A stretch of 64,000 bases of DNA from Heterohyrax brucei (taxonomy: Eukaryota > Chordata > Mammalia > Hyracoidea > Procaviidae), in NCBI GenBank assembly GCA_028571685.1, contig CM053142.1, forward strand, positions 65,063,296 through 65,127,295, written 5' to 3'. Every line of letters begins with the position of its first letter. Within the stretch, counting starts at the first letter, position 1. The position numbers were made by a program, and so were the translations under genes. The notes under the pieces were generated by a model, which was not told the origin of the DNA, searched no databases, and saw only the letters and a list, made by a program, of their open reading frames with translations. This document shows, piece by piece, positions 6,741 to 61,111 of the stretch.

Positions 6741-6791
6741 TAACCAAAACCAAAACCAAATCCAGTGTCATTGAGTCGACTCCAACTCATG
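6741..6791 (-). mobile_element. 51-bp 5'-truncated AfroSINE with duplication
   Basis: Only the SINE 3' end is present: an AACCAAAACC repeat tail and the TCATTGAGTCGACTCCAACT block. An 8-bp direct repeat AGTAATGG flanks it (6733-6740, 6792-6799). An intermediate size between full copies and the 25-30 bp insertions elsewhere in the window. Confidence 0.85.
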
Positions 6792-14221: not shown

Positions 14222-14455
14222 TGTCACCTTTGCAGTACCCCCTTGGACTAGCCAGTGCCTAGTGCACCCTTCAAAAAATTTTAGAACTCTTTGTGGAATG
14301 GCCATTCTGCATGGTGGCACAGAGGCAGGTCCATGAACTTAATTGTATAGTTGTCTATGAGGGAGTTTTTAGCCAGTAAATAAATAACTGTTGGAACACC
14401 CACCCTACTCACTTGATCTGTCCCCCAGTGACTTTTTTCTTTACCCAAAGATAAG

Positions 14456-14480
14456 CCAAAGCCAAGTGCCGTTGAGTCGG
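14456..14480 (-). mobile_element. 25-bp micro-insertion (SINE/RTE-tail type), copy A
   Basis: Flanked by a perfect 14-bp direct repeat TACCCAAAGATAAG (14442-14455 and 14481-14494). The 25 bases between carry, on the minus strand, CCGACTCAACGGCACTTGGC. The second mariner copy at 39070-39110 shows the unfilled site (TTTATTCAAAGATAAAGG), so the insertion is real. It splits the transposase remnant just behind the DFFLF codons. Confidence 0.85.
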
Positions 14481-15029
14481 TACCCAAAGATAAGGAAAGA
14501 CATTTTGATGATATTCAGCACATCAAAAGTAATAGAATGATGACTCTGTTGGCCATTCCAGAAAAAAAGAGTTTCAAAATTGTTTTGAAGGGTGGACTAG
14601 ACACTGTTGTCAGTGCATAGCTTCCCAAGTGGAGTTCTTCAAAGGTGACCATAGTGATATTCAGCTGTGAGGTATGTAGCACCTTTTCTAGGGTAAGTTC
14701 ACAAACTTAATTGGCAGTCCTTGTGTGATGACTGACAGGAAGAGAAAGAGGGAGAAAGGACAGATGCACTTCTAACACATGTTGCCCTATGGATTCCCAT
14801 CCATATTCCACAGTAAGAATGAGCATCAGCAGACACGGACCCAATCTCAAGGGATGTTGGTAGATGTGGGAAGGGCTAGGTTTTAGGACCTTACATATAC
14901 TTTTTACTAGGAAAACATGGGGAAAGATAAGCAAACTGGCTTTTGAAGAAGTTCCATGTTGATGTTCTCTTCAGTCTAACAACTTCTCTCTCATCATCAT
15001 CATTGAAGTCCAAGCTCCCATCATCTCTT

Positions 15030-16232: not shown

Positions 16233-16290
16233 AGAGGGTCACTATAAGTTAGAATCTACTCAGCAGCGATGGGTTGGGTTTGGTCTTACC
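16233..16290 (+). mobile_element. 5'-truncated AfroSINE tail
   Basis: Only GGGTCACTATAAGTTAGAAT, CTACTCAGCAGCGATGGG and a TTGGGTTTGG tail remain, about 58 bp. Confidence 0.75.
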
Positions 16291-17590: not shown

Positions 17591-17640
17591 TGAAAACCAA
17601 AACCAAACCCATTGCCATCAAGTCAACTCTGACTCGTGCA
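17591..17640 (-). mobile_element. ~50-bp 5'-truncated AfroSINE
   Basis: AACCAAAACCAAACCCATTG then CCATCAAGTCAACTCTGACT: only the 3' end in minus orientation. No clear duplication. Confidence 0.8.
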
Positions 17641-39355: not shown

Positions 39356-39454
39356 TACCTTTTTACAACAACATAAATGGCAATTTGTACAGATAGACTT
39401 TGTGGGATGGAATATACTGGAATCAAATTGACTACTTCTGTGGAAAGATAATAG

Positions 39455-39481
39455 CCAGCCAAGTGCCGTCGAGTCGGATGA
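39455..39481 (-). mobile_element. 27-bp micro-insertion (SINE/RTE-tail type), copy B
   Basis: A perfect 15-bp direct repeat GTGGAAAGATAATAG flanks it (39440-39454, 39482-39496). On the minus strand the insert carries TCCGACTCGACGGCACTTGG. The host is the RTE endonuclease-linker region, which reads through once insert and one repeat are removed. Confidence 0.9.
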
Positions 39482-39760
39482 GTGGAAAGATAATAGAGAA
39501 GCTCAATATCATTCATCAGAACATAGCCAGGGACCTATTGTAGAACAGGCCTTCAGTTGCTCATATGCAAATTCAATCTGAAGCTGAAGAAAATTAAAAC
39601 AAGTCCACAAGAACCAAAGTATGATCTTGAATTTAGAGACTATCTGAAGATGAATTTAGAGGCCGTCTCAAGATGAGATTTGATGCCTTAAACACTAATG
39701 ACCAAAGACCAGATGAGTCGTGGGAAAGTATGAAGGATATTGTACATGAAGAAAGCCAAA

Positions 39761-51411: not shown

Positions 51412-51921
51412 TGTCTTAGCTATCTAGTGCTACTGTAGCTGAAATGGCATAAGTAGATGGCTTTAATGAAGAGAAATTTATTTCTAGAAGTCTGAATTCA
51501 GGCAAAGCTTTCTCTCTGTAGGCTCTGGAGAAAGGTCCTTGTCTATATCTTCTCCTTCTCTGGAGCTTCTTAGTGCAGGAATTCCAAATCCAAAGGAACC
51601 ATGCTCCTAGTTCTGCTTTCTTGACATTATGAGGTCCCCGTGTCTTTCTGCTCAATTCTCTCTTGTATCTTAAAAGATATTGACTTAAGACACAGCCTAA
51701 TCTTATAGTCTTGTCTCATTAAAATAACTGCCACTAATCTCCAGTCGGATCTGACTCGACGGCACTTGGCTTAATCTCAACTCATTAACATCACAGAAGT
51801 AGGATTTACAACACATAGGAAAATCACATCATGAAAAAATGGTAGATAATCATACAATACTGGGGATGGTGGTTTAGTCAAGTTGACACACACTTTAGGG
51901 GGACAGAGTTCAATCCATAAA
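51412..51921 (-). mobile_element. solo LTR, MaLR (ERVL) type
   Basis: TGTCTTAGCTATCTAGTGCT start, AAGTAGATGGCTTTAATGAA, and TTTACAACACATAGGAAAAT near the end. It holds micro-insertion C. Confidence 0.75.
51742..51771 (+). mobile_element. 30-bp micro-insertion (SINE/RTE-tail type), copy C
   Basis: A 7-bp direct repeat TAATCTC flanks it (51735-51741, 51772-51778). It carries CTGACTCGACGGCACTTGGC preceded by AGTCGGAT, giving the partial palindrome AGTCGGATCTGACT. The LTR copy at 49163-49668 has no such sequence at the corresponding place. Confidence 0.75.
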
Positions 51922-60045: not shown

Positions 60046-60506
60046 TTTCTCCTAAAAATACTTTTGTGAATATCTTAACAAATTAAAAAAGAAAAAATTG
60101 ATCACTTGTCTTGTAAGTCATCACTTGTATTCTGTTGTCTGATTATTTATTATTTCAAGTTTTCCTCTTTCTTGCTGTTTATTGTAAATTTGTAGCTCTA
60201 GAATCTCAAGTACATAGTGGTTCATGTGTGGTGCACTGTATTTCATATTATGTTATATCAGGAGACACACACTGTTTGTTTCTTCCCAGTTTTAGTGATG
60301 TTAAGTTTGATCAGTGGGTTGAAGATTTGTTACTCTGATTTATCCATTATAATGCTTCTCATCCATATTATCGTTAATGGTTTCACCATCTACGGATACT
60401 GCATTAGTTCATTACGCATTGCAAAATGCCATTGCTTCTACATGTATTTGTTGGCATTGTTCTATAAAATACTACTTTTTCTCAACTTTTTCACTATCTT
60501 GGGGAA

Positions 60507-60536
60507 CGGATCCGACTCAACGGCACTTGGCTTGGC
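60507..60536 (+). mobile_element. 30-bp micro-insertion (SINE/RTE-tail type), copy D
   Basis: A 7-bp direct repeat TGGGGAA flanks it (60500-60506, 60537-60543). It reads CCGACTCAACGGCACTTGGC, preceded by CGGAT, so CGGATCCG is palindromic. The host is old L1M sequence. Confidence 0.75.
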
Positions 60537-61111
60537 TGGGGAAAGCAGGATAAATGTTTAATTACTTTATTTAGCAGTTTTCAAAATAATGAATTGGTGT
60601 CCTGACAACCTCCAAAGACGTCCAATGGAAGTTGTTTGTATATTTTGAGATATCATTATGTACTCAGGTTTTTAAGATCAATTTGATTAAAACATGATTA
60701 ACATAAAGACCACTACACGTTTTTTGACAACTGTGTACCCTGACAAGTGATCACACACAATCAAGATGCAGAATGTTTTGCCTACCCCCCCAAAGTTTCC
60801 TTGCAGTCAGTAACTTCTTCCATTCCCATTCCCATTCCACATTAGTTTTTGTAGTCTAGAGTTTCATATAAACAGAATTATGCAATGTATATTTTTTGTG
60901 TGTGGCTTCTTTCATGTAACACAGTATTTTAGAGATTCATGTTGTTATATGTATCAATAGTTTCTTTTTATTACTGAGTGGTATTCCATTTAATGGATAT
61001 GCTACAATTTGCTTATTCATTCATCTGTTGATGGACATTTGGGTGTTCCAAGTTTGGATTATTACAAATGAAGCTGCTGTGAACATTTGTGTACAAGTCT
61101 CTATGTGGAAG

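Follow-up and report, generated by a model that had tools for sequence, protein, structure and literature searches.

Micro-insertions of 16-60 bp are apparently extreme 3'-terminal remnants of a single young AfroSINE subfamily

What kind of element leaves behind an insert of only 27 bp between two perfect copies of a 15-bp target sequence? The locus raises this question together with three similar ones in the window, by which we mean the whole stretch of 64,000 nucleotides that was analysed. A core 20-mer matches the window at four places with up to 3 mismatches, two per strand (14460-14479 and 39457-39476 on the minus strand, 51752-51771 and 60513-60532 on the plus strand), while the mean in 100 dinucleotide shuffles was 0. 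The features are as follows:

14442..14455, no strand: left copy of the 14-bp target-site duplication TACCCAAAGATAAG of micro-insertion A, from sequence
14456..14480, minus strand: micro-insertion A, 25 bp, CCGACTCAACGGCACTTGGCTTTGG, with the SINE sense on the minus strand
14481..14494, no strand: right copy of the 14-bp duplication of A, from sequence
39440..39454, no strand: left copy of the perfect 15-bp target-site duplication GTGGAAAGATAATAG of micro-insertion B
39455..39481, minus strand: micro-insertion B, 27 bp, TCATCCGACTCGACGGCACTTGGCTGG on the minus strand, the centre of this finding
39482..39496, no strand: right copy of the 15-bp duplication of B
51735..51741, no strand: left copy of the 7-bp duplication TAATCTC of micro-insertion C
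51742..51771, plus strand: micro-insertion C, 30 bp, CAGTCGGATCTGACTCGACGGCACTTGGCT
51772..51778, no strand: right copy of the 7-bp duplication of C
60500..60506, no strand: left copy of the 7-bp duplication TGGGGAA of micro-insertion D
60507..60536, plus strand: micro-insertion D, 30 bp, CGGATCCGACTCAACGGCACTTGGCTTGGC
60537..60543, no strand: right copy of the 7-bp duplication of D

Coordinates and strands of the four insertions (25, 27, 30 and 30 bp, with repeats of 14, 15, 7 and 7 bp) are exactly those of the sequence-only reading, and the observation itself is confirmed in a stronger form than was originally claimed. The duplication of A has a 12-bp core detected by script, to which 2 further matching bases were added by eye. 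Our listing of SINE and RTE ends in the window also agrees with the statement that none of them carries the tail of the micro-insertions. A tRNA finder run on the window returned no tRNA gene.

The core is abundant in the 3.49 Gb assembly. A 23-mer, CGACTCRACGGCACTTGGCTTGG, has 10,298 exact copies; its last 16 bases have 27,334 and its last 14 bases 44,748. A 35-mer extending 21 nt upstream of the 16-mer matches 33,104 places genome-wide at up to 3 mismatches. Reversed patterns gave 0 throughout, a control that may carry extra CpGs and was not relied on for the 14-mer. Scaling 33,104 by the sample fraction, 82/29, yields an estimate of about 90,000 copies of at least 16 bp, about 80,000 of them shorter than 60 bp. 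A big hidden class of still shorter inserts was considered and rejected: the difference between 44,748 14-mers and 27,334 16-mers needs no such excess, since CpG decay of ACGG can account for it (ACGG is kept in 7 of 14 long copies with the GG intact, as counted by eye). Some loci on C1 are one insertion lying in duplicated DNA, namely L035, L036, L043 and L045 (about 21.8-25.4 Mb); single insertions inside duplicated DNA likewise underlie L016-L018 with L138, and L166-L169.

A full-length parent with the same tail, absent from the window, was found elsewhere in the genome. It is an AfroSINE subfamily of about 160 bp made of a tRNA-related head, a body and a CACTTGG(CTTGG)n tail. We take the head to be tRNA-related on its likeness to the AfroSINE head and on PMC3747384 rather than on a tRNA model. 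In the few micro-insertion sites that extend far, the sequence upstream of the core is AfroSINE body followed by the tRNA-like head, and every sampled copy that extends far enough follows the SINE, up to full length. Approached from the other side, a 34-mer of the SINE body matches 6,577 places genome-wide at up to 2 mismatches. Our sample of long copies comprises 20 of the first 21 of these places listed, all exact, the remaining one being L050. A CACTTGG-type tail is present in 19 of the 20, with point changes in a few, and nearly the whole tRNA-like head in about 7 of the 20, judged by eye; L109 and L110 are full-length copies that combine head, SINE body and micro-insertion tail. The exception, L151, is a tailless, 3'-truncated copy whose SINE body breaks off short of the tail, early in hairpin 2 (see below). 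A 35-mer of the head matches 5,173 places genome-wide at up to 3 mismatches. The 3' region of this SINE shares homology with the older AfroSINE as well as with the 3' end of an RTE LINE, and the sampled sites revealed no LINE parent with the same tail. A named Repbase subfamily, AFRO_LA, is mentioned in PMC11292518 and in PMC3747384.

Copy length was measured as 16 plus the ungapped upstream match, leaving out further tail bases. The sample took in every exact 16-mer match on C1 as far as 21.7 Mb, which makes 94 of 100 listed (27,334 in the genome). Twelve sites judged by their like flanks to be the same insertion in duplicated DNA were removed (L017, L018, L138, L101, L102, L140, L161, L167, L168, L169, L180 and L027), leaving 82 independent sites; the length of L114 was fixed by hand at 84 nt upstream owing to an internal deletion. 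The median is 30 bp: 71 of the 82 copies are shorter than 60 bp, 7 measure 60-99 bp and 4 reach at least 100 bp, 2 of these being full length. Lengths range from about 16 to about 160 bp, and no sharp peak stands out at 25-32 bp. Genome-wide and sample fractions agree for the SINE body (6,577 of 33,104, or 20%, vs 7/29); for the head they are 16% of 33,104 vs 2/29, the head pattern decaying less because it holds fewer CpGs.

Two readings of the four insertions had first been offered: extreme 5' truncations of a subfamily missing from the window, or copies of a very short RNA. A distinct mobile unit of 25-30 bp does not stand: lengths are continuous with those of truncated SINEs and reach full length without a sharp peak, and parents exist. 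The first of the two readings is supported by the full-length parents with the same tail and by their same apparent age. The micro-insertions are apparently extreme 3' stubs, of 16-60 bp and in tens of thousands, of one young AfroSINE subfamily.

The suspicion that something unusual was at work held as well, as the ultra-short fraction is extreme in the young subfamily and not in the older tail type. The older AfroSINE consensus was checked against local copies and gave 74-87% identity in window matches. The control was an exact 23-mer of the older tail, found at no fewer than 36 places (a sampling frame only, as common words may be skipped), of which 20 were taken. At least 100 bp were present in 18 of these 20, compared with 4 of the 82 young copies (p = 3e-14); the two short ones, L181 and L198, measure about 88 and 38 bp. 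When the young tail was selected with a like 23-mer, just 1 of 94 independent sites (100 less six duplicates) reached at least 100 bp, namely L007. Older-tail sites in local DNA are nearly full length in 12 of 13 cases. The contrast is nevertheless one of degree, since older-type stubs do occur, including one in the window at 6753-6790.

That stub, on the minus strand, has 38 bp aligned and lies between copies of an apparent 8-bp repeat, CCATTACT. Further short 3' pieces of older-type AfroSINE are found in the window at 17600-17635 (minus strand) and 16235-16283 (plus strand).

Short and long copies of the young subfamily look equally young. Over the same 18 bases, non-CpG mismatches number 6 of 348 in 29 short copies and 6 of 228 in 19 long copies (L151 left out), and CpG mismatches 32 of 174 and 27 of 114, respectively; both groups were picked by exact matches elsewhere, so that their rates are biased young in the same direction. 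The idea that micro copies represent a younger wave than long copies is unsupported, the mismatch rates being alike.

The putative partner looks far older. In local DNA, ten of twelve aligned 3' ends of the RTE LINE diverge by 14-29% from the majority, the two alignments above 50% divergence having been excluded as not real members. A 35-mer of the LINE 3' end, in our own reconstruction, has 5 exact matches and 3,331 at up to 3 mismatches genome-wide, and no young partner LINE was seen with this 35-mer or among the local copies. The SINE appears to be much younger than the LINE copies seen, judging from divergence. A natural candidate explanation of the aborted copies is that the enzyme available in that period was weak, rare or foreign.

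Duplications and target sites bear the marks of insertion. A duplication score of at least 7 was obtained at 36 of 133 sites, against a mean of 1.6 when flanks were exchanged between loci, so that even a 7-bp repeat has a chance of only about 1% per site. Direct repeats are clearly above chance, as had been proposed; the other 97 of the 133 sites lack a duplication scoring at least 7. Among long copies with a tail, 7 of 19 score at least 7, and one of these seven sits in a TA repeat; the number is too small for a comparison of target signature. Relative to the first duplicated base, T is found at positions -12, -11 and -10 in 20, 21 and 19 of the 36 duplicated sites, a modest enrichment (single-position p of 0.009, 0.004 and 0.02, uncorrected, with 43 positions examined). 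The preference for C at -2 is strong (22/36, p = 2e-8), and T occupies -1 in 21/36. The first duplicated base itself, position 0, is mixed (A11 C12 G3 T10). According to a passage of PMC13295347, RTE-clade elements have TA at the nick and, roughly one helical turn before the first duplicated base, a T-stretch; the 36 duplicated sites match the T-stretch but not the TA, their nick following CT. Junction microhomology of at least 2 nt between duplication and element occurs in 22/36 vs 0.068 expected, in a duplication search looser than the scoring of the 133 sites and with no shuffle control of its own. At L025 (about 1447-1492), an inverted copy of the apparent target duplication lies upstream of the insertion, as if the end of the cDNA or of the target had snapped back.

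An empty site can be reconstructed at L087, where an older antisense AfroSINE harbours an insert of 24 bp together with its 14-bp duplication. When the insert and one copy of the repeat are taken out, the older SINE is restored without a gap and aligns with a score of 172, vs 132 for the filled site. L116 is similar (29-bp insert, 5-bp repeat, 186 vs 122) but has one inserted base at the site. Removal at L030 and L047 brought no useful gain in score (94 vs 92 and 84 vs 84).

The explanation that we consider highly probable is that the micro-insertions are 5'-truncated copies of the young AfroSINE, made by RTE-type target-primed reverse transcription of SINE RNA that aborted within or just before the 3' hairpins. 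The enzyme of an RTE-clade LINE would nick its target site some 10-12 nt past a T-rich tract, on the downstream side, and copying would begin at the (CTTGG)n tail of the SINE RNA. The reverse transcriptase would then drop off within or just before the two 3' hairpins; the short cDNA would be joined to the target, often by microhomology of 1-4 nt, and a duplication of roughly 7-16 bp would be left behind. On this account an RTE-clade LINE would have supplied the enzyme, the template would have been full-length RNA, and it is the enzyme that would have stopped rather than the RNA that ended. The 97 sites without a duplication scoring at least 7, the missing TA at the nick and the far older look of the partner LINE tell against this account.

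The 3' end of the parent is predicted to fold into two hairpins, and the 5' ends of the copies cluster just 3' of hairpin 1: among copies still extending there, 20 of 36 stop in that spacer. The truncation hazard per nt is highest, at 0.096, in this spacer beside the base of hairpin 1; it is 0.035-0.052 in hairpin 2 and 0.02-0.03 in hairpin 1, and every segment other than the spacer, as far as the 5' arm of hairpin 1, lies at 0.02-0.05. Deletions that skip part of a hairpin were seen by eye in L114 and L077. At L135, also by eye, the stub is adjoined upstream of the core by the same SINE body in inverted orientation, a foldback resembling L1 twin-priming. The hairpin-skipping copies and the foldback fit stalling.

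Hairpin strength as the sole cause of shortness was, however, rejected. The older AfroSINE has almost the same two predicted hairpins as the young one, at a similar energy (-36.2 vs -38.2 kcal/mol), folds about equally well and is rarely truncated, so hairpin blockage alone is insufficient. Predicted structure would indicate where copying tends to stop, not why the young subfamily stops so often. Covariation in the hairpins, counted over 32 copies (19 long young ones and 13 of the 20 older ones), is mixed. The percentage paired (0/500 shuffles), the double-change cells (3/500) and the covariation score (8/500) are favourable, while the pairs with a double change (484/500) and the further pair types (498/500) are unfavourable, falling below most shuffles.

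The alternative that survives best is that the templates were short 3'-terminal SINE RNAs, processed or degraded to about 20-60 nt, which retained the tail that the LINE protein recognises and were copied all the way to the end. The length distribution, extreme in the young subfamily and not in the older one, speaks for it: the lengths contrast although the predicted folds are almost alike, so something besides structure differs. Besides, L032 and L050 begin about where the tRNA-like head would end. However, the 5' ends of the 82 sites fall on 40 different positions rather than on a few cut sites, the microhomology of at least 2 nt found in 22 of 36 sites suits an unfinished cDNA better than run-off, and the hairpin-skipping and foldback copies indicate stalling. 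The wide spread of 5' ends, the excess of microhomology at junctions and the link between end points and hairpins favour aborted reverse transcription over short RNA templates, which we regard as improbable. A broader formulation embraces both routes: the SINE subfamily may have become a generator of micro-insertions, with about 80,000 inserts of 16-60 bp produced via short 3' RNA fragments or via a hairpin-stalled reverse transcriptase. We look on this formulation as doubtful, albeit worth keeping in mind; if true, it would be a mode of retroposition whose usual product is a stub, easily overlooked by repeat annotation.

Far less probable is that the inserts are patches captured during double-strand-break repair, independently of a LINE endonuclease. 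The 97 of 133 sites without a duplication scoring at least 7 would suit such an origin, and part of PMC4516963 reports retrotransposon capture at breaks in mouse zygotes. At sites with duplications, however, capture is already unlikely: duplications in 36 of 133 sites vs 1.6 by chance, the positioned T-tract and the C at -2 all stand against it. Moreover, 19 of the 20 long copies, picked irrespective of tail, share one 3' end, unlike the products of random capture. Slightly less probable still is an independent mobile unit, a very short DNA or RNA with no relation to the SINE. The window holds no parent and the genome holds 27,334 exact 16-mers, as such a unit might suggest, but the sequence upstream of the core tracks the SINE parent as far as each sampled copy extends, the tail is also common on long copies, and the continuous series up to full length, without a sharp peak, refutes it. 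Shortening of full-length SINEs by later deletion, considered because deletions are common in old repeats, found no supporting evidence and has a negligible probability: the scored duplications lie no more than a few bases away from the truncated 5' end (closeness that the scoring required and that flank-exchanged controls rarely matched), L087 has a clean empty site around a 24-bp insert, and short copies are as young as long ones.

On genome counts, stubs of 16-60 bp are the commonest product of one SINE subfamily, and they are easily missed by repeat masking. In genome comparisons they would resemble ordinary small indels, and they may be markers of descent. The opposite truncation rates of two subfamilies with near-identical predicted 3' structure make the determinants of 5' truncation in LINE-driven retroposition directly testable. 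In the literature searched we found no description of such micro-insertions; earlier work on RTE1_LA and AfroSINE target sites may mention short copies.

Compared with known systems, the micro-insertions belong to a familiar class of event, the retroposition of 5'-truncated SINEs, with an outcome that is extreme and specific to the subfamily. Afro SINEs (AFRO_LA, PSINE1) are listed with RTE1 as partner in a section of PMC3747384. The young subfamily resembles AfroSINE and RTE1_LA in having a related head and body, two predicted 3' hairpins and an RTE-like 3' end. It differs from the older AfroSINE in its tail (CACTTGG(CTTGG)n vs CARTGGGTTTGG), in being mostly ultra-short and in being apparently much younger. 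The T-tract, which lies upstream of the nick by about one helical turn, recalls the Tn-TA signature of the RTE clade (Bov-B, plant RTE); unlike in that signature, the nick follows CT, and there is no consistent A or T at the first duplicated base. Truncation, junction microhomology and duplications of varying length are shared with 5'-truncated L1, as described in part of PMC2912911. The same part associates short duplications with L1 copies 5'-truncated in cis and not with copies made in trans, and the SINE, unlike those L1 copies, is copied in trans. Truncated LINE copies measure 100 to 1,000 bp according to a passage of PMC3747384, whereas the median micro-insertion has 30 bp. Tailless retropseudogenes, as presented in a portion of PMC5322556, are likewise small retroposed pieces of RNA with duplications and with end points tied to RNA structure; they are, however, 3'-truncated and tied to L1, while the micro-insertions are 5'-truncated, keep the 3' tail and have an RTE-like target.
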